Shown here: positions 10,986-29,306 of the stretch, piece after piece
Layout of the letters: every line of letters begins with the position of its first letter
Position numbering within the stretch: position 1 is the first letter of the stretch
Translations under genes and position numbers: made by a program
Source: Gammaproteobacteria bacterium
GTDB taxonomy: Bacteria; Pseudomonadota; Gammaproteobacteria; Steroidobacterales; GCA-2729495
DNA length: 64,000 bases
Direction of reading: 5' to 3'
Assembly (NCBI GenBank): GCA_030426355.1
Contig: JAUHYQ010000002.1
Location: forward strand, 310,001-374,000
The notes under the pieces: model-generated
Database searches by the model: none
The model's input: only the letters and a program-made list of their open reading frames with translations
What the model was told of the DNA's origin: nothing

Positions 10986-12038
10986 ATGATCAAGCCTTGG
11001 CGTGCGACCTGTATGCAGGTGTATTGCAATCTCGTCAACAGCGCGAGCGATCGTGCCGAGGCGATGGTGATCATGAACCGCTCGATCGACCGTTGGATTG
11101 AGCTCTTGCGAGGGGTAGCGCGGCAGGGGCCACCGCAACTCGCACTGTTTCCGGAATTTGCACTGACAGGGTTTCCGCTCACCGAAAGCGCCGCCGAGTG
11201 GCTCGACAAGGCGTGTATCGATATCCCGGGCCCGGAAACCGAGCGTCTGCAGCGCGAGGCGCAGAACCTGAAAATCTGGATTGGCGCGAATGCCTACGAG
11301 CGTGATGCAAGCTGGCCGGGCCGTTATTTCAACTGCTGCTTTTTGATCAGCCCTTCCGGTGACATCGTGCTGAAGTACCGTCGCATCAATACTGTTTTTA
11401 CAGCGTCCCCGCACGACTTCATGGAAGAGTACCTGGAGCGTTACGGCATCGAAGGTACGTTTCCGGTCGCCAAAACAGAACTCGGCAATATCGCCATGAT
11501 GCCTTGCGGCGAGATCATGTACCCCGAAGCCGCGCGCATGTTCATGCTGCGCGGTGCCGAAGTACTGCTGCACCCGACCTCGGATCACGGTGCATCGGAC
11601 ATGTGGAGTTGGGAATCTGCGAAGAAGACCCGCGCGTCGGAAAACATGATGTACCTGATCTCGGCCAACCAGACCGGGCTGATCGGCGGCCAGTTGCCGC
11701 AGGGCCAGACCGCGGGCCATTCGAAAATCTACGATTGGGACGGGCGCATACTCTCTAATACCGGCAGCCCGGGCGAGTCCACCGTGTGCTCCGACTGGAT
11801 TGACGTTGAGGCACTGCGCCGCGTGCGTTCGCTGCCCGGATCCGGCAACCGGCTGCTGCGTCAGCGTCTGGACATCTACCGGCCGTTGTACAACCAGACG
11901 ACGCTCTACCCGCCGAACAGTTTTGCCGATGTACCGATGGATTCGCGCGAGCGCATTCTGGAAGTGCAGCGGCAGGCTTTCGACAACCTGGTAAGAGCAG
12001 GCGTGATTACACCGCCGGCAGATTATTCAGGCGAATAG
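10986..12038 (+). CDS. Nitrilase-superfamily carbon-nitrogen hydrolase
   Basis: A 350-residue hydrolase carrying the full Glu-Lys-Cys triad of the nitrilase superfamily: E57 in LFPEFALTGF, K130 in LKYRRINT and C174 in MMPCGEIMYPE. These enzymes hydrolyse nitriles, amides or N-carbamoyl compounds through a thioimidate or acyl-enzyme on cysteine. A Gly-Glu after the catalytic cysteine and length near 350 are closer to aliphatic amidase/formamidase-like branches than to true nitrilases, but the substrate remains open. It has no signal peptide. The next gene starts one base after its stop. Confidence 0.85.
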   Translation: MIKPWRATCMQVYCNLVNSASDRAEAMVIMNRSIDRWIELLRGVARQGPPQLALFPEFALTGFPLTESAAEWLDKACIDIPGPETERLQREAQNLKIWIGANAYERDASWPGRYFNCCFLISPSGDIVLKYRRINTVFTASPHDFMEEYLERYGIEGTFPVAKTELGNIAMMPCGEIMYPEAARMFMLRGAEVLLHPTSDHGASDMWSWESAKKTRASENMMYLISANQTGLIGGQLPQGQTAGHSKIYDWDGRILSNTGSPGESTVCSDWIDVEALRRVRSLPGSGNRLLRQRLDIYRPLYNQTTLYPPNSFADVPMDSRERILEVQRQAFDNLVRAGVITPPADYSGE

Positions 12039-13292: not shown

Positions 13293-13410
13293 GGCGATAT
13301 TATGAATGAGGCGTCGGCAGAATTGCCAATGAGGAAAGGAGGGTGGTGCAAATTCATTAGGCATTGTGCCTGCCCATATATATGTGCCTTGGTTGAGTTT
13401 CTGATTGACC

Positions 13411-13448: not shown

Positions 13449-14201
13449 ATGAGAAAAACAATAGTACTTGCGCTTTTATTGACCTTGTCCTCGGTTAATG
13501 CCGACGATCTTGAATGCGACGGATGCGTTCACGCTGAAGATATCCGCGGTCAGGCCGTTACCACTCAGAAGCTCAGAAAAGGAGCGGTTACCGAGGGCAA
13601 GCTGGCGCCCGAGGTTCAGCGCAAATTAAATGGACTGGTGGTGACCGACGGAGTGGGGCGAAAGCTGCCCATAGAGTTGGGCTATGTCGGTTCGGATATG
13701 GCTCAGGGCTACTACCGACTGGACGATGGCGGCATTGTGCCCATTAGTATTTCACGGTGGTTGCCGGATCAGCCTCATCAGATTTTTGGGGTTCCCTGGC
13801 CAGGTTACTCAGCAATTACGCCTGGTTACCCACCGGGGCCAGCCATATTTTTTACCGGCGCGGGTTGTACCGGCAGACCTTTCATGGCGAGCTACTTTGA
13901 TCAAATCGCACGCCCTCTATTTCCATTGATTTTGATGGTTGATCCGGCGGCTCCTAACCGATCCAGGCTGGTGTTTCGCATTGGCGAACGAGTGAATGAG
14001 CAATTAGACGCGGTGTCGCGTCTGGATAGTTACTACGGGTGTACCGAAATCGATCCTGACAGCCCTTATCCGTATTTGTCGGACAACGATATTGCGCGAA
14101 TTCAGTACGGTAATGGGGCCCTTCTTGAGCCTGAGTTTATTGATATAACTCTGGTAACCTCGTTCGCCTGGATTCCACCACTGACCATCTCGACACAGTA
14201 A
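13449..14201 (+). CDS. Secreted protein with a GAVTxxKLAP motif (paralogue A)
   Basis: A 250-residue exported protein. After a signal peptide (MRKTIVLALLLTLSSVNA) the mature N-terminus has a CDGCVH cysteine pair and the repeat-like phrase QAVTTQKLRKGAVTEGKLAP, a pattern also seen in phage tail-fibre and surface-fibre stalks. The remainder has paired cysteines (GCTG, YGCTEI) and no recognised domain. The gene at 14514 is a full-length paralogue with the same start region and cysteine placement. It is the only gene of what looks like a left-truncated island unit. Confidence 0.7.
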   Translation: MRKTIVLALLLTLSSVNADDLECDGCVHAEDIRGQAVTTQKLRKGAVTEGKLAPEVQRKLNGLVVTDGVGRKLPIELGYVGSDMAQGYYRLDDGGIVPISISRWLPDQPHQIFGVPWPGYSAITPGYPPGPAIFFTGAGCTGRPFMASYFDQIARPLFPLILMVDPAAPNRSRLVFRIGERVNEQLDAVSRLDSYYGCTEIDPDSPYPYLSDNDIARIQYGNGALLEPEFIDITLVTSFAWIPPLTISTQ

Positions 14202-14254
14202 AGCTGTTTGCTCAGGCTCTCTTAGGGAGTTGTCCGGAGATGTCTTGTCGGTCA

Positions 14255-14329
14255 TGTGACCTCACCGTGACCACAGCAATCTGCCAGACACACCAAACCA
14301 GCATTCAAAGCCTAAGTATCTGAACAGAT
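14255..14329 (+). repeat. Unit right-end repeat, copy 1
   Basis: About 75 bases beginning TGTGACCTCACCGTGACCAC and ending CCTAAGTATCTGAA, directly abutting a tRNA-Pro fragment. The same sequence stands at 29155-29229 next to the intact tRNA-Pro, and a shortened copy is at 27776-27830. Confidence 0.8.
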
Positions 14330-14374
14330 TGATCGGGGTGAGAGGATTTGAACCTCCGGCCCCTGCCTCCCGAA
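14330..14374 (-). repeat. tRNA-Pro(CGG) 3'-half fragment (att-like), copy 1
   Basis: It is identical to the tRNA-Pro gene at 29230-29306 from the anticodon loop (TTCGGG) to the discriminator base, except that the CCA end reads TCA. The 5' half is absent, so it cannot be a functional tRNA. A break in the anticodon loop with the 3' half kept is the usual geometry of tyrosine-recombinase attachment sites at tRNA genes. Confidence 0.85.
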
Positions 14375-14512
14375 ACCGTTCAACACCTGAGGAGCCTTAC
14401 CCGAACAGGGTGTCAGAGCCGCTGGATCGATACTTTCCACGCCGGCGAGTGAGCGTGCTGTGACTGGAATATTCCGTTTGGTATGCTATTCAGGCGCTTT
14501 GGGAGGGCGCCT
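14375..14512 (+). promoter_or_regulatory. Shared unit leader and promoter-like block (copy 1)
   Basis: The first ~100 bases after the tRNA fragment match those at 19392-19495, including GAGGAGCCTTACCCGAACAG and a small ACCC..GGGT hairpin. Further on, TTTGGTATGCT (14477-14487) and GGCGCTTTGGGAGGGCGCC (14493-14511) form the block common to all three first genes; the latter is an inverted repeat. The coding start follows at 14514. Confidence 0.65.
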
Positions 14513-14513
14513 A

Positions 14514-15167
14514 ATGAGAACAGCAATATTCTTGATGCTTCTTGCTGCGGCTTCCGCCATTGTCGCCGACGACCTTCAGTGCAACGGCTGTGTGCATACC
14601 GATGATATTCGCAATCAGGCGGTAACGACGCAAAAGATCCAGAAGGGTGCAGTCACCGAGGGCAAGCTTGCGCCCAAAGTTCTTCACAAAATGAAACGGC
14701 CGATAGTGAGAGACGGCGTGGGACGGGAGTTGCCGTTTTATGTGCTTGAAGTGTCCGGCCAGTTCTCTAACTTTGGCGTTGGCGGCTTGTATACCCTTGA
14801 TACTGGAGAAGTATTTCCGCTGATCGTTACGGGCAGTGACTTTTCGTTGCAGAGTCATCTGTCTTGGGTATATTTCGATGGGCCGGATTGCACTGGCAAC
14901 GGGTTCTTCGGTCCTCAAGTTAATGAAAGCACTCTGTATAAGGCAGGTATCATTCGGGACCCTCTGCCGTCACGGCGTTCATTCAGGGTATATCGCCTAG
15001 GGCAGCAAGTGGCGGTTACGCCAACGCTTTTGTCAGTGGTGCAAAACGGCAGTGAATGCGTTGAAATTATTTCGGTGTTATTTCCAGGGTACTGGGTAAA
15101 TGTGTTTGAGGCGGTCAAAGGTGAGCTTATAAAGTGGCAGCCACCCTATAGGGTTGAAGTGCCGTGA
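14514..15167 (+). CDS. Secreted protein with a GAVTxxKLAP motif (paralogue B)
   Basis: A 217-residue exported protein. The signal peptide is about residues 1-18, then DDLQCNGCVH and QAVTTQKIQKGAVTEGKLAP, nearly the same as paralogue A at 13449. C-terminal halves align more loosely but keep a DCTGNGFF-type cysteine turn and a late ECVEI. The start at 14514 is chosen over 14460 because it opens the signal peptide and matches the paralogue. An attC-like site follows its stop, so it is the first cassette-like gene of unit 1. Confidence 0.7.
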   Translation: MRTAIFLMLLAAASAIVADDLQCNGCVHTDDIRNQAVTTQKIQKGAVTEGKLAPKVLHKMKRPIVRDGVGRELPFYVLEVSGQFSNFGVGGLYTLDTGEVFPLIVTGSDFSLQSHLSWVYFDGPDCTGNGFFGPQVNESTLYKAGIIRDPLPSRRSFRVYRLGQQVAVTPTLLSVVQNGSECVEIISVLFPGYWVNVFEAVKGELIKWQPPYRVEVP

Positions 15168-15238
15168 TTGCGCAAACCGCTCCCTTCGGTCTCCGGACGC
15201 CTGGCTTCCCCAGCCACTTGTGCCTAGGGCGTTATATG
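15160..15238 (+). other. attC-like recombination site 1
   Basis: The right half is TGCCTAGGGCGTTAT (15221-15235), the same core as sites 5 and 6. The centre holds the CTGG/CCAG stem typical of this set. The left half is degenerate and lacks the TAACCAGTTGGGGCA consensus. Confidence 0.6.
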
Positions 15239-15967
15239 GCAACCAAATTGTTGGTAATTTCAAGCATTGCGCTGGGCATTCTAGGTTGTACAACCACAAA
15301 ACCCATGGTTCCGCGGGCTGCACCAGAGATCCCATTGGCGACTCAACCAGAAAAGTGCCGCAACTTCCCAAGTCCGTGGTACCCAGACGCTGCCGAGGCT
15401 GTGAGGCAGGAAGGTTGGGTGCACATAGAATATGGGGTAACCGCTAGCGATCGAGTTGTGAACGCAACAATTGTTGACTCAAGCCCGCAAGGAGTTTTTG
15501 AGGCAGCGGTACTTAAAGCTATCGAATTGAGCAACGAGGGCAAGCCAGAGGCTGATGCGATTCCCGTGGTCTCTGGCTGTCAACTAGCTGTCCGATTTCG
15601 GCTTGTAGAGCCTCAATTGAAGTATGCAAGTGATTTGGCTAAGTATGAAGAGTCTCAGAAGAACTGGCGGCCTACCTTCAGGGCCCAGCCATTCTATCCA
15701 CGGCAAGAAATGGAACGAGGACGAGTTGGCTGCGTAATGGTGGGCCGCTATGTAGGTTCAGATGGGCGCGTTATGGATATAGAAGTCATAAAGCAGTGGC
15801 CGAAGTCGACGCACTTTGCCAAGGCTGCAATAAAAGCTGTTGCACAGTTTCATTTTGAACCGATCAATGCAAATAGATCGCCTTCGTGGGATGCTCACAC
15901 TATTACCTTTGGTATAGATGGAATAAAGCCGGCTGGGGAGGATCTCAGTGCGAAGTGCGCCATATAA
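15236..15967 (+). CDS. Cassette lipoprotein with two TonB-C-like domains
   Basis: A 243-residue lipoprotein; the lipobox is LGILGC. Two segments resemble the TonB C-terminal fold: WYPDAAEAVRQEGWVHIEYGV at about residue 46, then PFYPRQEMERGRVGCVMVGRY near residue 155, each followed by a strand and helix pattern ending in an F..P phrase. TonB-C domains contact outer-membrane proteins; without a transmembrane helix this is not a TonB energiser. The start sits three bases into the end of attC site 1. The stop TAA is supplied by the left end of attC site 2. Confidence 0.65.
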   Translation: MATKLLVISSIALGILGCTTTKPMVPRAAPEIPLATQPEKCRNFPSPWYPDAAEAVRQEGWVHIEYGVTASDRVVNATIVDSSPQGVFEAAVLKAIELSNEGKPEADAIPVVSGCQLAVRFRLVEPQLKYASDLAKYEESQKNWRPTFRAQPFYPRQEMERGRVGCVMVGRYVGSDGRVMDIEVIKQWPKSTHFAKAAIKAVAQFHFEPINANRSPSWDAHTITFGIDGIKPAGEDLSAKCAI

Positions 15968-16042
15968 CCAGTTGGGGCAAAGGGCTCGCTTCGCGAGCGA
16001 GACGTCTGGCTTCGCTAGCCGTCCCAGCTCAAGGCGTTAGAT
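15962..16042 (+). other. attC-like recombination site 2
   Basis: The left half is TAACCAGTTGGGGCA (15965-15979) and the right core is GGCGTTAGAT, in which GTTAGAT fits GTTRRRY exactly. The centre has GCTCGCTTCGCGAGC and CTGGCTTCGCTAG hairpins. The preceding gene's stop codon is the first TAA of this site. Confidence 0.8.
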
Positions 16043-16048
16043 GGCATT

Positions 16049-16423
16049 ATGAAGCGACCAGGTGGATTCACGTTTCTGTCCCTTGTTATGGGCTGGCTGG
16101 CGATCGCCGGTCTCGCAAACGGGGGCTTGATGGTCAGCGGCTCTTTTGGCCAACTTCCCATTGTTTTAGGAATTCTAGCTGTCGGCTATGGTATCGCAGC
16201 GGGGTTCAGTGCGATTTTCCTTTGGCGCTTTATGGAATCTGCCATTGCTGCGCTTCGTAGTTGGATGGCAATATGTCTTCTCTTCATGATTACATTCGCA
16301 TATAGCTTCAGCAGCATGTTCATGGGTGCCGAAATCGGTTTGGCTGGTTTCCTACTAGTTACAGGTATTCTTTTCTTCCTTTTGGATAGATATGTGCGCG
16401 GGAAGTTTGATGTTGCCCCCTAA
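16049..16423 (+). CDS. Cassette-encoded small membrane protein
   Basis: A 124-residue protein with about four hydrophobic helices (residues 8-27, 34-57, 70-92, 97-113) and short loops. No family is recognised. It begins seven bases after attC site 2, and its stop codon lies in attC site 3, so the reading frame fills the whole cassette. Confidence 0.65.
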   Translation: MKRPGGFTFLSLVMGWLAIAGLANGGLMVSGSFGQLPIVLGILAVGYGIAAGFSAIFLWRFMESAIAALRSWMAICLLFMITFAYSFSSMFMGAEIGLAGFLLVTGILFFLLDRYVRGKFDVAP

Positions 16424-16497
16424 CAAGTTGGGGCAAACCACTCGCTGTGCTCGTTGGACGCCATGCTTCGCGTGCTGCCTGTGCCGGGGGTATTAAG
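16417..16497 (+). other. attC-like recombination site 3
   Basis: The left half TAACAAGTTGGGGCA (16421-16435) differs from the consensus by one base. The right core TATTAAGC is degenerate. The centre again forms hairpins (CATGCTTCGCGTG). Confidence 0.7.
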
Positions 16498-16507
16498 CAG
16501 GCCTATT

Positions 16508-17269
16508 ATGGAAACCCTGCTTCAGCCAGAGACAAAATACCCTCGCCTATACAGCGAGTGGCAGGTTGGGTTCAGCGTAGTGCTTGCCGGACCACTTGCC
16601 GGTGGCTGGCTTCTTCGACGTAACTTTCAGGAGTTGGGCGAAACCACAAGGGCACGAAACGCTCTTATCGCATCTCTGGCAATCACAGTCGCCCTTGCTT
16701 TACTGCCACTGCCGACCGACGTATCGCCAAATATCGTCTCGATACCAATAGCACTCGGCTTTCTGTTCGCATACAAAAAGCTTATGGGCTCTCGTTACGA
16801 GGATGAACTGGAAAGAGGCGGTGTGAAGCAGGGCTTCTGGAAAACGTTCGGGGTCGCGGTCTTCAGTATTCCATTCACAGTCGCGATTGTTATTTTCGTG
16901 ATGCTGCTGATACCGGTTCCGCCTATAAACAATGTTAGGTATGAGAACAATTTTATTTACTACGAGCAAAACGCAAAGCGAGAAGACGCTGAAGCGCTTG
17001 CCAATATGCTACGAAGACTCGATGTCCTCAGCGCCCAATCAGAATGGGCGATTACACTCTCTTTCCCTCGCTTTGCTCCGGACAGAGTGATTATCGAATT
17101 TCCCGTTGCCGAAGCGCCTGAGAAGAACAGCGAGATGGATCAAGCATTCAAATTTCTTCAGGGCAACCTAGCTTCTACGTTATATTCTGACAAGAGCGAA
17201 GTATGGATATCGCTAACAGATCCGTTTGGGTTTCATCTGGTGCGTATACCGAATGACGATTCGGCTTAA
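16508..17269 (+). CDS. Cassette-encoded membrane protein of unknown function
   Basis: A 253-residue protein. Hydrophobic helices lie at about residues 20-37, 55-72, 74-90 and 117-140, followed by a soluble C-terminal domain of about 110 residues. The start at 16508 (METLLQPE) is preferred to 16454, which lies inside attC site 3. No family is recognised. Confidence 0.6.
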   Translation: METLLQPETKYPRLYSEWQVGFSVVLAGPLAGGWLLRRNFQELGETTRARNALIASLAITVALALLPLPTDVSPNIVSIPIALGFLFAYKKLMGSRYEDELERGGVKQGFWKTFGVAVFSIPFTVAIVIFVMLLIPVPPINNVRYENNFIYYEQNAKREDAEALANMLRRLDVLSAQSEWAITLSFPRFAPDRVIIEFPVAEAPEKNSEMDQAFKFLQGNLASTLYSDKSEVWISLTDPFGFHLVRIPNDDSA

Positions 17270-17341
17270 TCAGCTCGGGCATTTGCTCGCTGACTTTCGC
17301 CGGATGCCCGACTCACTCTGCCGCCAACTAGGGCATTAGTT
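17265..17341 (+). other. attC-like recombination site 4
   Basis: TTAATCAGCTCGGGCA on the left and CTAGGGCATTAGTT on the right are diverged forms of the conserved halves, at the expected ~75 base spacing between neighbouring genes. Confidence 0.6.
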
Positions 17342-17345
17342 TTTT

Positions 17346-19277
17346 ATGATCCGCTTGCCAGTACTTGTTGCGTTAATGCTCATGGTTGGTCGCAGCTCTG
17401 CTGAGCCGCTGTCTGTAGATTCAGTTCTGCATATTTCGGACCTGCGTCAAGTCACCATTTCAATGGATGGAAGCAAGTTGGCCATGATCCGTCGCGTTGA
17501 TAAAGATGATTATTCTTTGTTGGTGTTGGATGTTGATCAAGATTACAAGGTCCTTCAGTTGTTGCAGGAGAATTCAAGTGATAAGTTGCTCGAAGTAACC
17601 TGGCTCAGTGAAGATCGATTTGCATTGGCAATTCAGAAGTCAAAGATGCTGGGCTGGGGCCGTGCCCGCTACAATCGGCTGGCCATTATGAATGCCGATG
17701 GTAGCGGGGCTGTCGGTGCGCTCACAAATCATCCGGGCATTCGCAACAATAACGACCTTACGCAGATCGCAAGTGTGCTTTGGGGCAAGCCGGACTCTAT
17801 ATTGCTATTTGCCAACGATCCGTATCTGAGTTTGTATAAAGTCGATATTGAATCGGGCGATGCGGAGAGGGTTGTAGAGGGCAGAAGAAATACAGTTTAT
17901 TGGTCCGTTGATGACAACGGTAACCCAATACTTCGTTTTGATTACGATACCGCCTCGGGAGACATTCAGGTTTTCGCGCAGGAGGCGGGTGCTAGTGAGT
18001 GGAAAAAAATTGTTGATCGAAACTCCACTGATGAGGAAATCGAAGCTGCACTATTGGGCGGATCCGGCGAAGATGAAGAAATACTAATGCTGCATAGAAA
18101 GGACGATGATGATTATTATTCTCTTTATCAGTATGACCCGGTAAACGATAGTTTTGGCGAGAAAATATTTGCGGTAGACGGTCTGGATCTTGTTGAGGTA
18201 ATAAAAACGGGTGTAACCGGCACTGTAATAGGGGTCAAGTATGTCGACGACTATGTTCGTTACCATTACTTTTCCGAAGGCCTGCAGGCGGTGCAAGCGC
18301 AGCTAGAGAATATTTTCCCGATGTCGGAGGTGGCTCTGCTCGATGCATCGGAATGGTTGGATCGTTTTCTGGTATTGGTGAGTAATTCGAAGCATCCGGG
18401 GGTCTACTATTTGTATGACCGCTGGACAGAGAAAGCGACAAGATTAGGTGAGCTCATCCCCGGTTTGGAGGAGGCGACGACTACCGTTACCGAGAGGATT
18501 TCCTATGAATCTATAGACGGATTGACGATTCATGGCTACCTGACATACCCCAATCAAGCGGATGTGTCGTCACTACCATTAATTGTTCATCCTCATGATG
18601 GGCCTGCAAGAAGGGACTCAGCCGATTTCGATCCGTTTGTTCAGTTCTGGGCGAGCCGAGGCTATGTGGTTTTTCAACCAAATTTTCGCGGTTCGGTTGG
18701 CTATGGAAAAAGTTTTCGCGAGGCCGGTCGCCGGCAGTGGGGGCTGGGCATGGTGTCTGACATAGCCGCAGGTGTTCACGCAATAGGCACCGCCAGAAAG
18801 GCAGATATCTCGCGTGTGTGTGCCGTTGGGGTTGGATTTGGCGGCTATATATCATTAATGCTGGAGGCCTCGACCAACCTTCTGGATTGCGTTGTAAGTA
18901 TTGATGCCTATACCGATTTGCCTGGCTGGTTAGAGAGTCGCATTAGCAACGCTAGTCAAGAGAACATTGATCGAATTCGTGAGAGTACAGCCGAGTTGGT
19001 TGGCGACTACGAGAGAGACCGGGATTTTTTGCGCAGCCAGTCCCCCATCTATCTTGTCGATAAGTTCTCGGCCCCGGTGCTGCTTATGCATAGGGATTCA
19101 AATACCTATGTTCCGGAACGTCATAGTAAGCAGCTGCATAAAGCCCTCAGGAAGGCGGGTGTCGATAGCGAATATCAGAAAATCAAAACCAGCAGGTTAA
19201 AGAATCGACCGCTGAAGCCCGCGGAAATCGTATTGAAGAAAACCGAAAAGTTTTTTGCTCGACATTTGACGAAATAG
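17346..19277 (+). CDS. S9 prolyl-oligopeptidase-family protein lacking the catalytic triad
   Basis: A 643-residue exported protein (signal peptide about residues 1-19). Residues 20-390 form a propeller-like region and residues 400-640 an alpha/beta-hydrolase domain with S9 signatures (HPHDGPARRDS, FQPNFRGSVGYGKSF). The nucleophile elbow reads GVGFGG, with glycine 497 where serine belongs. The acid position in HRDSNTYVP is asparagine 586, and no GH(G) histidine motif occurs in the C-terminal stretch. It should therefore not be a peptidase, though it may bind peptides. It is the last gene of unit 1 and starts just after attC site 4. Confidence 0.8.
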   Translation: MIRLPVLVALMLMVGRSSAEPLSVDSVLHISDLRQVTISMDGSKLAMIRRVDKDDYSLLVLDVDQDYKVLQLLQENSSDKLLEVTWLSEDRFALAIQKSKMLGWGRARYNRLAIMNADGSGAVGALTNHPGIRNNNDLTQIASVLWGKPDSILLFANDPYLSLYKVDIESGDAERVVEGRRNTVYWSVDDNGNPILRFDYDTASGDIQVFAQEAGASEWKKIVDRNSTDEEIEAALLGGSGEDEEILMLHRKDDDDYYSLYQYDPVNDSFGEKIFAVDGLDLVEVIKTGVTGTVIGVKYVDDYVRYHYFSEGLQAVQAQLENIFPMSEVALLDASEWLDRFLVLVSNSKHPGVYYLYDRWTEKATRLGELIPGLEEATTTVTERISYESIDGLTIHGYLTYPNQADVSSLPLIVHPHDGPARRDSADFDPFVQFWASRGYVVFQPNFRGSVGYGKSFREAGRRQWGLGMVSDIAAGVHAIGTARKADISRVCAVGVGFGGYISLMLEASTNLLDCVVSIDAYTDLPGWLESRISNASQENIDRIRESTAELVGDYERDRDFLRSQSPIYLVDKFSAPVLLMHRDSNTYVPERHSKQLHKALRKAGVDSEYQKIKTSRLKNRPLKPAEIVLKKTEKFFARHLTK

Positions 19278-19325
19278 CGGGCTCAAGGAAAGAAAAATCA
19301 TCGAAGCCATGAACCCGACATGCAC

Positions 19326-19346
19326 GCCCTAAGCATTTGAAAATAT
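19326..19346 (+). repeat. Short remnant of the unit right-end repeat
   Basis: CCCTAAGCATTTGAAAATAT precedes the tRNA fragment and matches the last ~20 bases of the repeats ending at 14329 and 29229. The first 50 bases of that repeat are missing or unrecognisable here. Confidence 0.55.
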
Positions 19347-19391
19347 TGGTCGGGGTGAGAGGATTTGAACCTCCGGCCCCTGCCTCCCGAA
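19347..19391 (-). repeat. tRNA-Pro(CGG) 3'-half fragment (att-like), copy 2
   Basis: It is identical to the intact tRNA-Pro over about 45 bases, from the anticodon loop through the encoded CCA. The 5' half is replaced by the unit leader. Copy 1 and this copy share the sequence that replaces the 5' half, which argues for a repeated insertion product and against chance decay of a tRNA. Confidence 0.88.
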
Positions 19392-19609
19392 ACCGTTTAA
19401 CACCGGAGGAGCCTTACCCGAACAGGGTGTCAGGGTTGCGGGGTCGATGATTTGCTCTCCGGTGAGTGACCGTGCCGCGACCGGAGTCCTAGAGAAATAC
19501 GTGTTCCGTGATGGGGGTTGGTGCCAATAGTTTTTGGCGGGAGAAAAGCCCTTATGTGTAAACAGAAAGGGCTGTTTGGTATGCTGATCGGGCGTTTTGG
19601 GGGGGCGTC
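19392..19609 (+). promoter_or_regulatory. Shared unit leader and promoter-like block (copy 2)
   Basis: The sequence after the tRNA fragment matches the leader at 14375, including GAGGAGCCTTACCCGAACAG. Further on, TGTTTGGTATGCT (19573-19585) and GGGCGTTTTGGGGGGGCGTC reproduce the promoter-like block. The first gene starts 39 bases later, further away than in the other copies, behind an AAGGGGGG ribosome-binding site. Confidence 0.6.
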
Positions 19610-19648
19610 ATAAAGAAGTGTGACGCTAGGCTTTGTAAGGGGGGTGTT

Positions 19649-20548
19649 ATGGGTAGAGTGCTGAAAGCGTGCGCGCTTTTCTTGACGCGTTTTGTCTGCG
19701 CAATTTTCCTGTCGGTCGCGGTTGTTTTGGCCGCTATGAGTGCAGCGACTGTCATGGGTCTTGCGGGCGGGCTTGGTGTTTTTAAACTTTCGGCTTTGGG
19801 CGGAAGCATAATGCTTGTTATTTTCCTCGTCTGCTTTGCGTCAAAAAACACAAAGCGCACACGAGCGTTGGTGGCGCTGAAAACTATAGGGGTTTGTGTC
19901 GCTCTTGTTGTTGTTTGGTGGATTCTCGATCCGCCCCGTGCCTTACCCAATGATCCCGAGCAAGCAGCAGCCCTAATGGTTGGCGAATTTGGTGGTTCGA
20001 GCATGCTTGCTTCTATGCTGATCTATTCGGCTGCTCTGATCCTGCCTATCTTGTGGTTGCCGTCTCTGTCAATCAGAGGCAAGACCCCGGTGCCGAACGG
20101 GCTTTATAGATTCGAGAAGTTCATGATTGGTTATGGTGTCTTTATGATGGCATTTGGATATTTTACTTTTGACACCATAATGCAGGGGTTTTTTCGAGGC
20201 TCACCTCTAATGACAGAAGAGATGCTCATGCGAATGCCTGTCTCGCCTCTATATAGCTTTGTCTTTAGTGCTATATTTTTCGTGGTGTCAGTTGCGGCTC
20301 TCACACGCATTCGTTTAATAATCATGCGTCCGTTTTTCTTGATTTGGGCGATCCTTATGGTTCCCGGAACACTTATAAATTTTGTCGTCTTGGCCATTCC
20401 AGCATGGATGGTTGTGGTGAATATATTGAGCGTCGCTTTCTTGATCTACTGCGTATATCTGCTCTACCGTCCGGAAATAGGAACGTGGGTAAGAGAGGCG
20501 AAGGCAGAGTTTGAGGCTAATCGTATCAGCGCTACGCCGGTGTCTTGA
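19649..20548 (+). CDS. Multi-pass membrane protein, first gene of unit 2
   Basis: A 299-residue protein with seven or eight hydrophobic helices (about residues 10-38, 46-63, 72-90, 117-135, 157-180, 200-222, 228-250, 252-272) and a charged C-terminal tail. I do not recognise a family. The ATG follows a strong AAGGGGGGTGTT ribosome-binding site. Its upstream leader is homologous to those of the paralogue A and B genes although the protein is unrelated, so first genes appear to have been exchanged behind a constant leader. Confidence 0.65.
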   Translation: MGRVLKACALFLTRFVCAIFLSVAVVLAAMSAATVMGLAGGLGVFKLSALGGSIMLVIFLVCFASKNTKRTRALVALKTIGVCVALVVVWWILDPPRALPNDPEQAAALMVGEFGGSSMLASMLIYSAALILPILWLPSLSIRGKTPVPNGLYRFEKFMIGYGVFMMAFGYFTFDTIMQGFFRGSPLMTEEMLMRMPVSPLYSFVFSAIFFVVSVAALTRIRLIIMRPFFLIWAILMVPGTLINFVVLAIPAWMVVVNILSVAFLIYCVYLLYRPEIGTWVREAKAEFEANRISATPVS

Positions 20549-20549
20549 G

Positions 20550-20628
20550 TTGATGTGGAAGGCCTATGCTAGGCGTGCTGGGCGCAGATACTCGATTTCG
20601 CGTTCCGCCTGTGCCTAGGGCGTTAAAC
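20550..20628 (+). other. attC-like recombination site 5
   Basis: The right half TGCCTAGGGCGTTAA (20612-20626) is identical to that of site 6, and GTTAAAC fits GTTRRRY. The left half is diverged and has no AAC core. Confidence 0.65.
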
Positions 20629-20632
20629 AGTC

Positions 20633-21304
20633 ATGCGCCAACCCGTATTTGCTCTTAGTCTGGGACTTGGCCTTCTCGGCTGTACTGCGCCAGCTAATAT
20701 GGAATTGTTGGGAGAACCCATCTATACCGTGGGCGACTCGGAAGTAAGGCGAGAAGACTTCGTGGTGTATGGAAGGCTACTGAAGGAAGTTCTTGTTGCG
20801 CCAACCGATGTTTATGCCAGTTCGTTCGGTCACGCATACTGCATGGCTGAAGAAGTAACTTATGAGATCAAACACTATATTCAAGGTAGCGGCCCGCCGA
20901 TTATCGAGTTTACCCAGAACCTGGTTGATTACTGCACGCCTTTGGCTGAGGAGATCGGATTTGAGGAGTCAATCCTGTTCTTCTCGAAAAATAAGTGGCG
21001 AGGTATATGGTCGACTGGGACGGCAAGGATTTTTAAAGACGATGGTCAACGGCGTATAGTTTTGCCAGCTGATATTGAGAGGTTTTCCAGCCTCGATAAC
21101 TTTAAGCTATTACTAAGTGACTATGACGAACCGGTAGAAATAGCCTTTTCGAGACAACTTGAGGCATGGAAATTTAGTGAATCCCTTAAGGAGCTCGGCG
21201 TGATTAGTGAAAGGCCCAGCCAGAATGAGGAAGACAAAGACTTTCTATTGTTGAACCTGCATAAGTATATTGATCTTGAAGATCTGCTACGAAATAACTT
21301 CTAA
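20633..21304 (+). CDS. Cassette lipoprotein of unknown function
   Basis: A 223-residue protein with a lipobox (GLGLLGC) at about residue 17. The mature part is acidic, with four scattered cysteines, and matches no family I know. It starts a few bases after attC site 5. Its TAA stop is part of attC site 6. Confidence 0.6.
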   Translation: MRQPVFALSLGLGLLGCTAPANMELLGEPIYTVGDSEVRREDFVVYGRLLKEVLVAPTDVYASSFGHAYCMAEEVTYEIKHYIQGSGPPIIEFTQNLVDYCTPLAEEIGFEESILFFSKNKWRGIWSTGTARIFKDDGQRRIVLPADIERFSSLDNFKLLLSDYDEPVEIAFSRQLEAWKFSESLKELGVISERPSQNEEDKDFLLLNLHKYIDLEDLLRNNF

Positions 21305-21379
21305 CCAGTTGGGGCATTACGCACGCTTCGCGTGCCGGACGTCTGGATTCGCCAGCCGCCCGTGCCTAGGGCGTTAAGT
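21299..21379 (+). other. attC-like recombination site 6
   Basis: The best-preserved site: left TAACCAGTTGGGGCA (21302-21316), right TGCCTAGGGCGTTAA (21363-21377), GTTAAGT fitting GTTRRRY, and central hairpins GCACGCTTCGCGTGC and CTGGATTCGCCAG. The length of ~80 bases is normal for attC. Confidence 0.85.
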
Positions 21380-21383
21380 GGCA

Positions 21384-21974
21384 ATGCAACTTCAGAACTT
21401 CGGACATCTGCTCTGCCTTATTTTTCTAGTCGGGTGCAATCACGATGGGGGATCCGAGAACTCCGAAGAACCTGCGCCATTTTCCGTGGGTTCTGTGAGA
21501 TCGACTGATCTAACCTATCTGCCGCTCGATGAGAAGTTCAATAGCTGGCTCATCTCCACCGTCGGCCAATCGCAGCAAATAATGCTCAAGGTCAAGGAAG
21601 AGCTGAACCCGGGCGGCTTCAATGATCTGGCATTGTGGGCGATGGCCGTTCGCAAAACTATCGACCAAGGCGGGACTGTTTTCTACGATGAGGCTGAAAT
21701 TAAGATTTTCCCCAACTACATCCCACGAGATGATATTTGTTGTGTCAATAGCAGGCCGTTCAGTGACTTCGATAACGCTGATGCCGCATACGTTGCCGTA
21801 GGCGGTTTTATTAACTTTACTGGAAGTAACAAGCAGGCATCCTTTGATCTGGATTTTCAGAAGGAGACCTCTGTTGGAAGCGGGGTTCTCGAAGGGCCAA
21901 TCGTGAAGGTTGAAGGTTGTTGGAGTATAGCCGGCGAAGGGGGCGTATCGGGGTGCGAAATCGGTCAGTTCTAG
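21384..21974 (+). CDS. Cassette lipoprotein of unknown function
   Basis: A 196-residue protein with lipobox LIFLVGC about 18 residues from ATG 21384 (a GTG two codons upstream is possible). The mature region is acidic and contains an ICC pair and a late CWS..GC motif. No family is recognised. It occupies the cassette between attC sites 6 and 7. Confidence 0.6.
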   Translation: MQLQNFGHLLCLIFLVGCNHDGGSENSEEPAPFSVGSVRSTDLTYLPLDEKFNSWLISTVGQSQQIMLKVKEELNPGGFNDLALWAMAVRKTIDQGGTVFYDEAEIKIFPNYIPRDDICCVNSRPFSDFDNADAAYVAVGGFINFTGSNKQASFDLDFQKETSVGSGVLEGPIVKVEGCWSIAGEGGVSGCEIGQF

Positions 21975-21978
21975 AGCC

Positions 21979-22060
21979 ACCTAACCAGTTGGGGCATTTC
22001 GCTTGCTCCGTTCGCCGGATGTCTGACTTCGCTGGTTGGCTGCGCCTAGCACGCGTCTTG
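21979..22060 (+). other. attC-like recombination site 7
   Basis: The left half TAACCAGTTGGGGCA (21982-21996) is perfect and is preceded by ACC, giving the core ACCTAAC. The right half TGCGCCTAGCACGCGTCTTG is degenerate and may no longer recombine. Confidence 0.7.
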
Positions 22061-22735
22061 ATGCGTCTGCTGTTCGGGGCGATGGCACTGTTGCTGTTTT
22101 CGCCCGCGAACGTTCTCGCTGCGGAAGTGGATGTTTACCGTTGGACAGACGAGTCCGGGCAGGTTCATTTCAGCGATCAAAAGCCCGCTGACACTGAAGC
22201 CAACAAGGTCGTGGTTGAATCAAAACAGCGATTCACCGAAGACATCAATGCCCAGCTTGATAGAACGGCGAAGTCCGAGTTTTACGCTGAACGGCGTGCC
22301 GACCGTCGGCGGTTAAAGAAAGAATCACGAGAAAGGGCGGAGCGGCTCGAGTGGCAGAGCAAAGAATCCGATTGCATGCGATCGCGACGCCGATACTACG
22401 TTGTTACTGAGCAAATGCCGATATACGTCGATGAGGTGGGAGAGTATCGCGTAGGGTGGGGAAATGATCCGTATACGGGCGCACGTAAATGGGTACCCGA
22501 CAGAGACAGAGATGCTGTTGCCGAAAGCGTGTGGAAGGAGATCGAACAGTTTTGCCGGGAGCCGGACGATCCTGAGGCGCAAGAGGAAGCGATTTGGCGT
22601 CAGGACGTGGATGAAACTTGCGATATTGAAACCGCATTTCTAAAAGAATTGAGCCAAGAGAGTGCCAAGAACACAGAGGAAAGGATAGAGCGTCAACGCC
22701 TGCTTGCAGAGTCTGTTTGCGCGTTGAAGCCGTAA
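22061..22735 (+). CDS. DUF4124-domain exported protein
   Basis: A 224-residue protein. A signal peptide of about 20 residues (MRLLFGAMALLLFSPANVLA) is followed by a DUF4124 domain (VYRWTDESGQVHFSDQKP), common in gammaproteobacterial envelope proteins. The remainder is a charged helical region (residues 60-105) and an acidic tail with four cysteines. The start at 22061 is preferred to 21917 because it opens the signal peptide directly after attC site 7. No attC site is recognisable after its stop, so it appears to end the cassette array. Confidence 0.75.
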   Translation: MRLLFGAMALLLFSPANVLAAEVDVYRWTDESGQVHFSDQKPADTEANKVVVESKQRFTEDINAQLDRTAKSEFYAERRADRRRLKKESRERAERLEWQSKESDCMRSRRRYYVVTEQMPIYVDEVGEYRVGWGNDPYTGARKWVPDRDRDAVAESVWKEIEQFCREPDDPEAQEEAIWRQDVDETCDIETAFLKELSQESAKNTEERIERQRLLAESVCALKP

Positions 22736-23350: not shown

Positions 23351-26300
23351 ATGCGCCATACAGGGTCGCGACACCAAATCTTAAAGCCACATTTTTTGGC
23401 GCTAATTGGTTGTGTATTATTTCTGCAGTCCCCAATGGGGTTTTCCGCATCTGATCAGCAAGTCGGTGCCGAAGGTACTTTCGGCGCGAACGGAATCGCT
23501 GGTGATCCCGGAACATCTGGCCTCGACGGCGGCAGTGGCGGTGATGCCAGTGCATCATCAAGCACGGTCAATACAGACGCCAACAACACCGCTGATGCTG
23601 ATGGTGGCGATGGCGGCTTCGGCGGCAATGGCGGAATCGGCAGTCCGGCCGGCGCTGACGGTGGCGACGGCGGCGATGCGGGTAACGGTGGTGATGCGAC
23701 AGCGACGGCTAGCACCGAGGTGTTAGCTGGCAGTGCTGTCAGCAACGCGAGTGCCAACGGTGGCAACGGTGGCTTCGGAGGCACGGGTGGTAGTGCAATC
23801 GGTGGGGGGGTCAGCGGTACTGGTGGCACTGGTGGAAAGGGCGGTGATGGAACTGCGCTCAGCACAACTATTTCTAACACTTTGGGCGGCGAAGCTGCTG
23901 TCGCCTATGCGGGCGGTCGTGGGGGAACTGGCGGCCGTTCCAATTTTGGCACTAGCGGTGCCGGCGGCGACGCGTCTGCAACTGCTACCGCAGATGCAAT
24001 CGATAACTCGGTGGTTGGCGCCCAGGCAACGGCCTATGGGGGCAACGGGGGGTATTCGAGCGTTGCTAACGGTGCTGCGGGTGGCAGTGCCGTGGCCGTC
24101 GCGACCGGATCTAATAACGGTACCAAGCAAGTCAACATTGATGCGCATGCTTACGGCGGCAATGGCGGTACAGCGACCGGCGCAGGCTTTCGAGGTGGCG
24201 ACGGCGGGTTGGCGACGGCCACCGCCTCAGGCAGTTCAGCGTTGTCATACGAACTTGATGTATTTGCGTCGATAACCGGCGGCAATGGTGGCTACGGTAG
24301 CGCCGGTGCAAATGGCGGCGACGGCGCGAACGCAATTATGAACAACGCCGTATCCGCTACCGGGAACAGTTATCGCCTTGTCCAGCAGGCCAGCGCCGGC
24401 GACGGCGGAAGTAGCCAGGGTGGTATTGCAGGCGTCGGTGGTTCTGCGTCGTCCATCCTTAACGTCAATAGTCAGGATAGTTTTGTTGATATTTACCTCG
24501 GCGCCTATGGCGGTGACGGCGGCACCAGTTTTAACTCGGGCAACGACGGGCAAGATGGCGCCGCAGGTTTTGTATCCGGAACGGTCGTCGCCAGCGACAG
24601 GGCAGATCTGGATGCCACCGTCCAAGGCGGAAGAGGCGGCGCCAGTTCGGACGGTAATGCTGGTAATGGCGGTGCAGCACAGACCGGTGTGCTAAGCGCA
24701 AGTGCAGAAAATATATATATGGAGTTGCGGTCGCTCGGCGGCCACGGCGGAGATGCGGGAGGAATTGGTGATGGCGGTAACGGTGCAGATGTGCTGCTCG
24801 ATAACGCTATTACAGGTAGCGCAACCGACACTCTCTTCTTGACGCAGTCTGCTGAGGCCGGCGACGGAGGTGATACAGAGGCAGGTGTTGCCGGGAGGGG
24901 CGGTAATGGGTTCAGTCGACTCGCTGTCACAGGTAGTTTCTCCCAACTTCGTCTGAATACAGATGCACACGGTGGCCATGGCGGTGACGCCAGGGGCGCT
25001 GGTGCAAAAGCATCTGTGGGAGGCACTGCCAGTGCGGTTAGTGATGCGGAGAATTCCGCAGGCGGTGCGTTTGCTTTTGCAGACGCCTGGGCCAGCGGCG
25101 CTAGCGGGGTCAACACTGGGGCCAATGGGATTGCCGGCAGTGACGCAAGCACTGACGCTCGAGCAGAAGCATCTGGCGGAACAGGTCCGGCGAGGGCCGG
25201 CGCGAGGGCCTATGGCGGTTACGGTGGCGGCGGGCAGGTTACTGGAGGTATGGGCGGTAATGGCACTGCCAGTGCAATTGCACTGGGATCCGGTGCAGAC
25301 TTTGCCGAAGCCAACGCGTTCGCCATCGGCGGCGGCGGCGGCGAAACTTATACGGGAACAGGTGGGGTCGGCGGCAACGGCGTTGCATACGCACGCGCTG
25401 AAAACAGTGGCAGCGCGGCAGTTACAGCAATAGCCGAAGCACGCGGTGGTGAGGATATACATGCAACTGCTGCTATACCAACAACCGGCGGTAACGCGGC
25501 CGCTTCGGCTGAGGGGATATCGACAGGTGACGGGCATGTTCAGGTAACCGCAATTCAGATCGGCGGTTCAGCGGGCGAGGATCGTTACGGCATTCCTAGC
25601 TCCGTGGCCGGCACATCCACAACAATTAGTGATGCTGTCACCGGCTCGACGTCCGGTTTGCTTGAATTAACGCAATCTGCAGTCGGTGGCAACGGTTCGG
25701 AGACTTCCGATGCGCAGGCTGGGGCTGGTGGTATAGCAACCTCAAGCCTGACTCACACTGATGCTGGCGCCAGCGAGGTTCGCGCAGTGACTAACGCGAC
25801 AGGTGGTGCCGGAGGCGATTCATTCAGTGGGGTGCCAAGTTCCATTGGCGGTGTCGGTGGCAATGCCTACGCTACGACGAGTCTTGTGACCAGTGGAATC
25901 GCGGTGGCCAGAGGCAACGCAATTGGTGGCGATGGCGGGGCATATACAAATAATCCTGGTGTCGGTGGGGATGGCGGCGACGCCAGCTCAAATGTTGTCT
26001 CAACGAGCACCGGGGGAATCGCACGTGCTTATAGCAGCGCGATTGGCGGTGATGGTTATTCGTCGGCACTGGACGGCGCGGCTACTTCGTCGGCTAGTGC
26101 TTTCGCCGAGAATAGTAATCAGGCTTATGCCAATGCGACGGCTAGAGGTTTAAGCGGATCTGCCACCGCACAGGCAACCACGAACGGTGGTGTTGTTCGA
26201 AGCGTTTCCGCGAGGGCAAGCGCGTCGATTCCTGCGGGCGTTGCTAACATGCCTACTGCTAACGCTACGGCGCAGGCTGTTGTTGATGGTTTCGTGACCC

Positions 26301-26875
26301 AGAATTTTCAAGGCAGCCAAGCGCTTGCCAGTGCCTCGCCGCCCGATGGGTTGTTAGATTTTGTAGCGGGCCAAAACTCTGGTTTCGCTGCAACACGAGA
26401 ACAAATTGGCGAGTCCATATTGCACGGATTTCTTGGCGCGTCGCAGCCCAATCAGGGTTTAGGTGCAAGTGAAATTTTCTTCGGTGAAGTGAACCTGAGT
26501 ATAGAGCGAATTAGCGCGGCAGATGAGCTTTTGCTACTTAGTTTGTATGACCCCCGCCTATTTGGCAGCGGTTTTGAAAGCATGGAGTTCTCGGTATTTC
26601 AGGAAGGTGTCGAAATTCTTGATCTACAGTTTAGTGATGCCAGCACAGCCTTCGCCTTTTTCGACGACAATACACTGGAGCTTGGGATGCTAAATACCGG
26701 GCTCGATGATGTGCTCGATCTGCGAATTGAAATGCAGACGAAGATTTTGGGCGCGAATGATGGCTTCTTCAGTAATTTCATAGTTAGCACGACAGTTGTG
26801 CCATTGCCGCCCGCGATATGGATGATGTTTTCAGCTCTGGCAATGCTGGGGGCTTTTCGTCCCAGACCTTCATAG
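23351..26875 (+). CDS. Giant Gly-rich PEP-CTERM surface protein
   Basis: A 1174-residue exported protein. The signal peptide is about residues 1-34. Residues 40 to about 950 are Gly/Ala/Ser-rich with GGxGG units every 15-30 residues (GGDGGFGGNGG and similar), superficially like mycobacterial PE-PGRS. A longer motif recurs at about residues 332, 484 and 761 (NAVSATG.., NAITGSATDTLFLTQSA, DAVTGSTSGLLELTQSA). A compact non-repetitive domain occupies about 985-1145. The C-terminus VPLPPAIWMMFSALAML plus basic tail is a PEP-CTERM sorting signal, so anchoring or release by an exosortase is expected. A CAGGGAG ribosome-binding site lies ten bases before the ATG. Confidence 0.8.
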   Translation: MRHTGSRHQILKPHFLALIGCVLFLQSPMGFSASDQQVGAEGTFGANGIAGDPGTSGLDGGSGGDASASSSTVNTDANNTADADGGDGGFGGNGGIGSPAGADGGDGGDAGNGGDATATASTEVLAGSAVSNASANGGNGGFGGTGGSAIGGGVSGTGGTGGKGGDGTALSTTISNTLGGEAAVAYAGGRGGTGGRSNFGTSGAGGDASATATADAIDNSVVGAQATAYGGNGGYSSVANGAAGGSAVAVATGSNNGTKQVNIDAHAYGGNGGTATGAGFRGGDGGLATATASGSSALSYELDVFASITGGNGGYGSAGANGGDGANAIMNNAVSATGNSYRLVQQASAGDGGSSQGGIAGVGGSASSILNVNSQDSFVDIYLGAYGGDGGTSFNSGNDGQDGAAGFVSGTVVASDRADLDATVQGGRGGASSDGNAGNGGAAQTGVLSASAENIYMELRSLGGHGGDAGGIGDGGNGADVLLDNAITGSATDTLFLTQSAEAGDGGDTEAGVAGRGGNGFSRLAVTGSFSQLRLNTDAHGGHGGDARGAGAKASVGGTASAVSDAENSAGGAFAFADAWASGASGVNTGANGIAGSDASTDARAEASGGTGPARAGARAYGGYGGGGQVTGGMGGNGTASAIALGSGADFAEANAFAIGGGGGETYTGTGGVGGNGVAYARAENSGSAAVTAIAEARGGEDIHATAAIPTTGGNAAASAEGISTGDGHVQVTAIQIGGSAGEDRYGIPSSVAGTSTTISDAVTGSTSGLLELTQSAVGGNGSETSDAQAGAGGIATSSLTHTDAGASEVRAVTNATGGAGGDSFSGVPSSIGGVGGNAYATTSLVTSGIAVARGNAIGGDGGAYTNNPGVGGDGGDASSNVVSTSTGGIARAYSSAIGGDGYSSALDGAATSSASAFAENSNQAYANATARGLSGSATAQATTNGGVVRSVSARASASIPAGVANMPTANATAQAVVDGFVTQNFQGSQALASASPPDGLLDFVAGQNSGFAATREQIGESILHGFLGASQPNQGLGASEIFFGEVNLSIERISAADELLLLSLYDPRLFGSGFESMEFSVFQEGVEILDLQFSDASTAFAFFDDNTLELGMLNTGLDDVLDLRIEMQTKILGANDGFFSNFIVSTTVVPLPPAIWMMFSALAMLGAFRPRPS

Positions 26876-27064: not shown

Positions 27065-27717
27065 GTGCGAATTTCAGCGACGGTGAGTTTTTGTAGTCTT
27101 ATTCTCATCGTCCAATGCAGCGACTATTGACTTTGAGTCATTACAGACGCAATCAGTCGGCATCATTTATAACGGTGTCGCCTATAGCGAGGATGGCATA
27201 GTTGTGTCATCTTCTGGAGGTGTTTGGGCAGCGGAGGAAGGCTGGCAATCAGGGAGAGGCAGTAGCAACGGTACGACCACTGCGATCTTCTTGAACAATC
27301 GAAATGATGCAACGCCCGCCGTTTTTGATGCCAATCTAGTCAGTGGAGAAAACTTCTCTTTGGAGGCTGTTGATTTAGGGGAGACTTTGCAAAATGGGGG
27401 ACTTTGCGTTTGCGGTTGCAGCACAGCAGATTGATGTGACCGGGTTTTTAGCCGGTGGCGGAATAGTCTCCACTACGTTGTATCTGGATTTACTTGCAGA
27501 TGGTCAGGGTGGCGTTGATGATTTCCAAACATTTGTTTTTGGCTCTGAGTGGACCTATCTCGAGTCGGTGGAATTCGTAGCTACAGGGCCGGCCAATATC
27601 TACGGCACTCGATTCGCTGTCGACAATTTGGTGTTGAACGTTGTGCCAATACCAGCAGCGGTCTATCTATTTGGTTCCGCTCTTCTAGGCCTCAGCTGGA
27701 TGCGAAGGAAAGCGTAG
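27065..27717 (+). pseudogene. PEP-CTERM protein gene with two frameshifts
   Basis: The start GTG has a GGGAGG ribosome-binding site eight bases upstream and opens a signal peptide (VRISATVSFCSLILI) that runs into a stop at 27128. A one-base frame change near 27108 restores SSSNAATIDFESLQ, the usual mature start of these proteins. A second change in a G-run near 27405 joins ETLQNG to GDFAFAVAAQQIDVTG. The gene ends with the sorting signal PAAVYLFGSALLGLSWMRR. Either it is a recent pseudogene or the assembly contains two errors. Confidence 0.75.
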
Positions 27718-27775: not shown

Positions 27776-27830
27776 TGTGACCTCACCGTGACCACAGCAA
27801 TCTGCCAGACACACCAAACCAGCATTTGAA
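27776..27830 (+). repeat. Unit right-end repeat, truncated copy
   Basis: It starts TGTGACCTCACCGTGACCAC and matches the copy at 14255 almost exactly for about 52 bases, then diverges after AGCATTTGAAG. It lacks the final bases and the tRNA fragment, so it marks a possible former unit boundary inside unit 2. Confidence 0.75.
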
Positions 27831-28002
27831 GATCGCTGAGGTTCTAAACGACAGGCGCATACCAACGCCCTGGGAGGTCGATGGCATATGAGTCAGGTGA
27901 GACGAGTCCAAGAACGACCAACGGTATTATGACAAGGCCGAATTGAGGCCCCTAGTCTGGATTTGCTACGCTGTATTTGACCGTTCACCCGGGAGGTTTT
28001 TC
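27831..28002 (+). other. Upstream region of the HAF-repeat gene
   Basis: No gene is present. TTTGCTACGCTG at 27962-27973 resembles the TTTGCTATGCTG block of unit leader copy 0, so a weak version of the shared promoter may be present. The GGGAGG ribosome-binding site for the next gene is at 27991-27996. Confidence 0.35.
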
Positions 28003-29097: not shown

Positions 29098-29154
29098 TTA
29101 GTGCCCCCCATGGAAGGGAAGAGACCATCTCCCTCTCCAGAATCGGCCTGTGGA

Positions 29155-29229
29155 TGTGACCTCACCGTGACCACACCATCCTGCCAGACGCACCAAACCT
29201 GCATTCGAAGCCTAAGTATCTGAAAATAA
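29155..29229 (+). repeat. Unit right-end repeat, copy at the intact tRNA
   Basis: It begins TGTGACCTCACCGTGACCAC and ends CCTAAGTATCTGAAAATAA, abutting the CCA end of tRNA-Pro. It differs from the copy at 14255 at only a few positions. Being next to the intact tRNA it may be the original 3' flank that was duplicated with each insertion. Confidence 0.8.
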
Positions 29230-29306
29230 TGGTCGGGGTGAGAGGATTTGAACCTCCGGCCCCTGCCTCCCGAAGACAGTGCTCTACCAGGCTGAGCTAC
29301 ACCCCG
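29230..29306 (-). tRNA. tRNA-Pro (anticodon CGG)
   Basis: A complete 77-base cloverleaf with encoded CCA. Acceptor CGGGGTG pairs with CACCCCG, the D arm is TAGCTCAGCCTGGTAGAGCA, the anticodon stem CTGTC/GGCAG holds loop TTCGGGA, and the T arm has loop TTCAAAT. The anticodon CGG reads CCG. Its 3' half is duplicated twice to the left and appears to be the insertion target of the island. Confidence 0.97.

Follow-up and report, generated by a model that had tools for sequence, protein, structure and literature searches.

An integrase-less cassette array that probably derives from a resident chromosomal integron of a gammaproteobacterium, and attI-like leaders at the head of related arrays

The window analysed here, a stretch of 64,000 nucleotides from the genome of a gammaproteobacterium (G000, contig C5, positions 310001-374000; 2.82 Mb in 11 contigs, 99.7% complete), contains between 15.1 and 22.05 kb what is very probably a cluster of attC sites lacking an integron-integrase (CALIN), composed of seven attC-derived sites, mostly placed after a single short gene, that belong to the species-specific attC family of the chromosomal integron of the same genome. 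An earlier inspection of this DNA (the original prediction) had proposed an integron-type cassette array without adjacent integrase, and the identification of the sites as attC of an integron bears out this assignment. As the genome encodes an integron integrase (IntI) and the attC of the window fall into the family of that integron, the array is part of the resident system and not an orphan of unknown origin.

For the detection of attC sites, we built a covariance model (R1) as equivalent of the standard IntegronFinder model, using 14 attC that all reside beside integron integrases on contig C3 of the same genome, in the congener G001 and in the genomes G027, G030, G045 and G050, with every window site left out to avoid circularity. 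The expectation that such a model would match all seven places holds for four of them: a search of both strands of the 64 kb with filters turned off yields clear matches at S2, S3, S6 and S7 (Table 1; 23.6 to 40.1 bits, E 7e-4 or better), all on the plus strand and within 6.1 kb, a fifth at S4 at the level of noise and no other match above 11.0 bits. S1 and S5 are not matched because their left half has decayed and only the right part is kept. In a direct comparison with the other attC of the genome, all seven sites score above 200 of 200 dinucleotide shuffles, reaching values of 24-66 compared to at most 18 for random 82-mers of the window. The sites are located on one strand between plus-strand open reading frames and their half-sites are found where they had been predicted, with TAACCAGTTGGGGCA at 15965, 21302 and 21982 and TAACAAGTTGGGGCA at 16421 on the left, and TGCCTAGGGCGTTAA at 20612 and 21363 and a version ending in GTTAT at 15221 on the right.

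The architecture of attC is best preserved in S2 and S6, which align to R1 from end to end and display the R''/R' core TAAC...GTTA together with L''/L' pairing and an extrahelical base, features that S1, S5 and S7 exhibit in part. In a combined alignment of 56 sites, the R and L stems covary, with 75 double-change cells compared to 34 in shuffles (0/500). Folding free energy alone is not discriminating, since S6 is the only site whose bottom-strand fold is clearly better than that of shuffles (z -2.7). A search of Rfam did not return any match for the window sites, and a strict scan for RYYYAAC/GTTRRRY missed them because their outer bases deviate, for which reason the trained model was used instead.

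The claim that the array is devoid of an integrase is valid for the 64 kb, where neither an intI nor, with our attI models, an attI above chance was detected, but not for the genome. In a whole-genome search, a single protein, encoded at C3:195226-196152, surpasses the cut-off of the integron integrase family TIGR02249 (411 bits vs 265). Its frame is intact, with 340 amino acids and no visible lesion, and its best match in the PDB is the IntI structure 2a3v from V. cholerae (E 6e-57). The genome-wide search for intI and related sites suggested alongside the original prediction thus recovered a full-length integrase and, with R1, six other clusters that together contain about 50 attC of this family on C3, C4, C6, C7 and C8, with those at the end of C7 and the start of C6 joined by an exact overlap of 115 bp. 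One additional R1 match of 48 nt (C5:120024-120071) was set aside as likely false positive, as it falls into an apparent mraY-like coding region. The window sites have the left half TAACCAGTTGGGGCA in common with the resident family, as well as the two inner hairpins, and the first cassette beside the intI of G001 carries the same left half (CTAACCAGTTGGGGC). The relationship extends to a whole cassette, with positions 15634-16040 of the window being homologous to C7:1923-2329 throughout the TonB_C gene and its attC (73% over 412 bp of DNA); a different cassette is common to two other arrays (C6:6609-6970 and C7:8978-9339, 89%). Together, the resident attC family and the homology with a cassette of another array thus indicate that the array, which lacks an integrase, belongs to the cassette pool of the resident integron and is a CALIN. 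As predicted, it mainly encodes lipoproteins and membrane proteins, together with an S9 peptidase and a protein containing TonB_C.

A complete integron, with intI and an attI heading the array, is found on C3 and not in the window. Resembling its attI, leaders are located at the head of five intI-less arrays (C4, C6b, C8a, C7end and C8b, Table 1), and when the genome is searched with a profile constructed from all six sequences (R3), the matches are these six and no others (E 1e-28 to 4e-12), the next best having an E of 0.3. All six precede the first attC of an array by no more than about 600 nt, and only the one on C3 is located beside intI. Since the heads had been chosen by looking at the arrays, the informative part of this result is that the whole-genome search does not detect such a sequence elsewhere. 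In pairwise BLAST comparisons with the C3 attI, C8a is 75% identical over 80 bp (E 1e-11), C6b 81% over 43 bp (7e-8), C4 67% over 128 bp (1e-5) and C7end 84% over 31 bp (4e-5), whereas between leaders the values are 87% over 198 bp for C8a and C6b (2e-65) and 72% over 220 bp for C7end and C8b (5e-23), the latter being tied to the C3 attI mainly via C7end. In all five arrays, a leader homologous to the intI-linked attI is thus placed directly upstream of the first cassette. The leaders terminate in the core GTT and then diverge, as expected where the first cassette joins, and the types found at C3, C4, C6b and C8a contain, as judged by eye, a possible promoter (TTGACC-N17-TAGTTT or alike). They are putative attI sites.

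The attI model does not find a match in 59 relatives, as expected if attI is species-specific. In G010, a member of another genus of the same family, the attI beside its intI is without match in G000 or G001, and only if used as query does it identify three further copies in its own genome, two of which head intI-less attC arrays (Table 1). In G001, the leader of a second attC locus (on its contig C32) is similar to the attI of that genome over 36 bp (80.6%, E 8e-6), which constitutes a weaker recurrence. The likeness of attI is much greater within one genome than between genera, which copying within a lineage, or co-evolution with IntI, would explain. A possible interpretation, which we take seriously without regarding it as probable, is that of a distributed integron, where one IntI would serve scattered attI copies, each of them a platform on which cassettes land, equipped with a promoter and an array of its own. 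Many CALINs of the family would then be working outposts rather than ruins, and the window would be an old outpost with a decayed attI.

The window sites score below most other arrays of the genome, whose attC mostly reach 40-62 bits with R1. Duplicated copies of the 3' part of tRNA-Pro(CGG), which the original prediction had not noted, divide the attC cluster of the window into two. Both resulting sub-arrays (A and B) proceed in the same order from a tRNA-Pro fragment to a shared stretch of about 95 nt, a leader repeat, a gene and an attC without left half, followed by cassettes. The leader repeat (GTTTGGTATGCT...), a sequence of 34 nt that is found only in the window, occurs at 13409, 14476 and 19574 ahead of three genes, whose homology starts at GTT. 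In G002, a genome of the same genus, a displaced tRNA-Pro(CGG) 3' fragment is located 5.3 kb from the intact tRNA-Pro and accompanied by different cargo, and the displaced fragments of both genomes are all broken in the anticodon loop. Their presence in the two genomes marks tRNA-Pro as a place of repeated rearrangement, which perhaps reflects integrative islands; no integrase was seen in the tRNA-Pro region. As a separate observation, a 51-bp repeat (GTGACCTCACCGTGACCAC...) is found at 27776-27831, 14254-14305 and 29154, 50-110 nt behind gene ends, with two copies being 100% identical.

Table 1. Location of attC sites, genes and repeats of the window (positions without contig name) and of related features elsewhere in the genome and in G010.
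Feature	Position	Strand	Description
S1	15156-15237	+	attC, left half decayed, right half TGCCTAGGGCGTTAT kept; 50/63 identical to C7:501485 attC, 0/200 shuffles
S2	15962-16042	+	complete attC; R1 40.1 bits, E 2e-8; 71/77 identical to C6:123807 attC
S3	16418-16498	+	attC with both halves, right core degenerate (TATTAAGC); R1 23.8 bits, E 6e-4; 65/75
S4	17264-17341	+	degenerate attC; R1 11.3 bits, E 1.3; 41/49, 0/200 shuffles
S5	20543-20626	+	attC, left half decayed, right half TGCCTAGGGCGTTAA kept; 53/69, 0/200 shuffles
S6	21299-21379	+	complete attC; R1 38.2 bits, E 7e-8; 73/80 identical to C7:695 attC
S7	21979-22050 (R1 match 21979-22085)	+	attC, right core lost, array end; R1 23.6 bits, E 6.5e-4; 46/54
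First gene of sub-array A	14514-15167	+	secreted protein, unknown family; 37% identical paralogue of 13449-14201
Cassette gene 1	15236-15967	+	lipoprotein with two TonB_C domains (PF03544, E 4e-22); 63% to cassette at C7:1915-2253
Cassette gene 2	16049-16423	+	small membrane protein
Cassette gene 3	16508-17269	+	membrane protein
S9 peptidase gene	17346-19277	+	prolyl oligopeptidase family (PF00326, E 9e-25); no attC behind
First gene of sub-array B	19649-20548	+	membrane protein
Sub-array B cassette gene	20633-21304	+	lipoprotein
Sub-array B cassette gene	21378-21974	+	lipoprotein
DUF4124 gene	22061-22735	+	PF13511, E 2e-10; flank beyond last attC, not a cassette
Intact tRNA-Pro(CGG)	29230-29306	-	source of fragments
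tRNA-Pro(CGG) 3' part with 3' flank	14254-14374	-	broken in anticodon loop; 92% to 29154-29274 over 121 bp; 42-nt tRNA part identical
Second tRNA-Pro 3' fragment	19328-19391	-	inside attC cluster; 95% over 64 bp to tRNA-Pro locus; 86% over 158 bp to 14311-14468
Leader repeat, sub-array A	14476-14509	+	precedes first gene; 85% to 19574-19607; attI models at chance
Leader repeat, sub-array B	19574-19607	+	weak similarity to attI-like C8a leader
attI-like leader C4	C4:165594-165710		no intI; heads cassette array
attI-like leader C6b	C6:124883-124999		no intI; heads cassette array
attI-like leader C8a	C8:109743-109859		no intI; heads cassette array
attI-like leader C7end	C7:500829-500951		no intI; heads cassette array
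attI-like leader C8b	C8:181560-181676		no intI; heads cassette array
Other R1 attC clusters	C3 end; C7:141-9346 (C7 start); C7 end joined to C6 start; C6:120766-124424; C8:107312-109298; C8:182169-183665; C4:166231-168266		
G010 attI copy	C79:64190-64357		80% over 168 bp; heads intI-less attC array
G010 attI copy	C75:22548-22617		87% over 70 bp; heads intI-less attC array
G010 attI copy	C61:427-548		77% over 122 bp; broken before its core

Several observations weigh against the assignment of the region as CALIN. Both halves are present in only three of the seven sites (S2, S3 and S6), whereas S4 is degenerate and at the noise level of R1, S1 and S5 have lost the left half and S7 its right end with the core. 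The genes at 17346-19277 and 22061-22735 are not followed by an attC, the head of the array does not contain an attI above chance (R2, R3), and we did not find an empty site in relatives, with both flanks in G002 residing on different contigs. The decay of the array and the lack of a recognizable head would fit the remnant of a complete second integron, from which intI and attI were deleted. We consider such an origin very unlikely: neither a profile search nor tblastn (best E 0.42) detects a remnant of intI in the window, and the other intI-less arrays of the genome are likewise free of such remnants, also near the attI-like heads that are kept in five of them. The third possibility, that of an intergenic repeat family unrelated to integrons, which the original prediction had named as an outcome that would overturn it, draws on the near-identical half-sites between genes. 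It is practically eliminated by the matches of R1 to window sites, which we count as already refuting in view of the training of the model on intI-adjacent attC, by the occurrence of the family in arrays, the first of them beside intI, and by the compensatory changes backing the attC stem.

Other explanations concern the context of the array. It might be the cargo of one or more integrative elements inserted in the anticodon loop of tRNA-Pro(CGG), with the 3' fragments at 14374 and 19391 defining the distal ends. The two displaced fragments, which are broken at the same point (...CTCCCGAA) with spacings of 5.0 and 9.9 kb, the common beginning of both sub-arrays and the fragment with other cargo in G002 argue for such insertions, whereas we did not see a gene for a tyrosine recombinase in the stretch, and the 75-bp flank common to fragment and intact locus, as well as the 51-bp copy at 27776, look equally like local duplication. 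On balance, we view this origin as plausible, if somewhat doubtful. A further proposal interprets the leader repeats at 13409, 14476 and 19574 as a decayed type of attI, in which case the window would once have been an attI-headed platform like C4, C6b and C8a. In a direct alignment, the leader at 19574 resembles that of C8a (Smith-Waterman score 17, 1/500 shuffles), and a GTTATG follows about 50 nt downstream of the leader, as in attI. The alignment is weak evidence because it is one of 24 comparisons made, and both attI models are at chance level in the window (R2 3.4 bits, E 5; R3 2.1 bits, E 2.2). We thus regard this proposal as unlikely and make no claim that the window contains an attI.

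If the region is a CALIN, as we favour, the IntI encoded on C3 would have placed cassettes in the window, or a block of such cassettes might have arrived. The tRNA-Pro fragments may mark an integrative island or, alternatively, duplications at tRNA-Pro that carried or split the array. As complete sites, S2 and S6 could remain substrates in trans on the folded bottom strand and confer residual mobility, whereas S1, S3, S4, S5 and S7 are decaying.

The surroundings of the arrays show additional features. Beside the array of the window, 23351-26875 encodes a Gly/Ala-rich repetitive secreted protein of 1174 residues without match in Pfam. Genes at 27394-27717 and 27943-29046 end in VPxPAAxxLFGSALLGLxWMRR(K), a sorting tail of the VPLPA/PEP-CTERM-like type, and genes with such tails adjoin several cassette arrays, including the C8a (C8:109743) and C6b (C6:124883) heads. 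Right after the last attC of the C8b array (C8:183.7 kb) starts a gene that reads like the type I restriction protein HsdR. The carbon-nitrogen hydrolase encoded at 10986-12038 of the window is 82% identical to a protein of G038 (C31:14234-15280), which belongs to another family of the order, while most relatives are only 35-43% identical, and horizontal transfer is thus possible.

With described CALINs, the window shares the presence of at least two attC on one strand, cassette-sized genes and the absence of an adjacent intI, while it differs in its heavy decay and its interruption by tRNA-Pro fragments. Genomes with intI are known to contain CALINs at a distance from it, as is the case for about half of Xanthomonas genomes (PMC12444791), and CALIN cassettes can be mobilised in trans (PMC9668308; PMC12444791). 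The definition of CALIN does not include an attI, whereas five intI-less arrays elsewhere in this genome have a copy of the resident attI at their head. Since attI detection by IntegronFinder is restricted to class 1 (PMC9024848), attI-headed CALINs would go unnoticed. The system resembles a sedentary chromosomal integron in its single intact IntI, its attI, a large array, a species-specific attC family and mostly unknown functions, although here cassettes are found at at least seven places instead of one array and with six attI-like sites instead of one. Insertion at secondary sites (attG) would explain cassettes at loci without attI (cited in PMC11023631 and PMC12444791). The attG sites are short and degenerate, whereas over 31-220 bp the leaders of the five intI-less arrays are homologous to the intI-linked attI or to one another. 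In delta-attI-type gene cassettes of class 1 integrons (PMC12901181), an attI sequence is likewise found off its canonical place and used by IntI, but it follows a gene inside an array, whereas the copies described here head separate chromosomal arrays. In literature on orphan, second, additional or duplicated attI, whose incomplete coverage leaves novelty unproven, we did not find a description of attI-headed intI-less arrays as a variant.

By itself, the window represents a known kind of array in a decayed state and is thus of modest value. The usual interpretation of cassette clusters without integrase is that of degraded integrons or of stray insertions. In this genome, five such clusters begin with a relative of the intI-linked attI, and the arrangement recurs in a second genus with unrelated attI and weakly in a congener. 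The layout allows for a clear test, with IntI either inserting cassettes at the attI copies or not. If the copies are active, the integron would be a network served in trans and not a single locus, and software that is blind to attI would miss this network.

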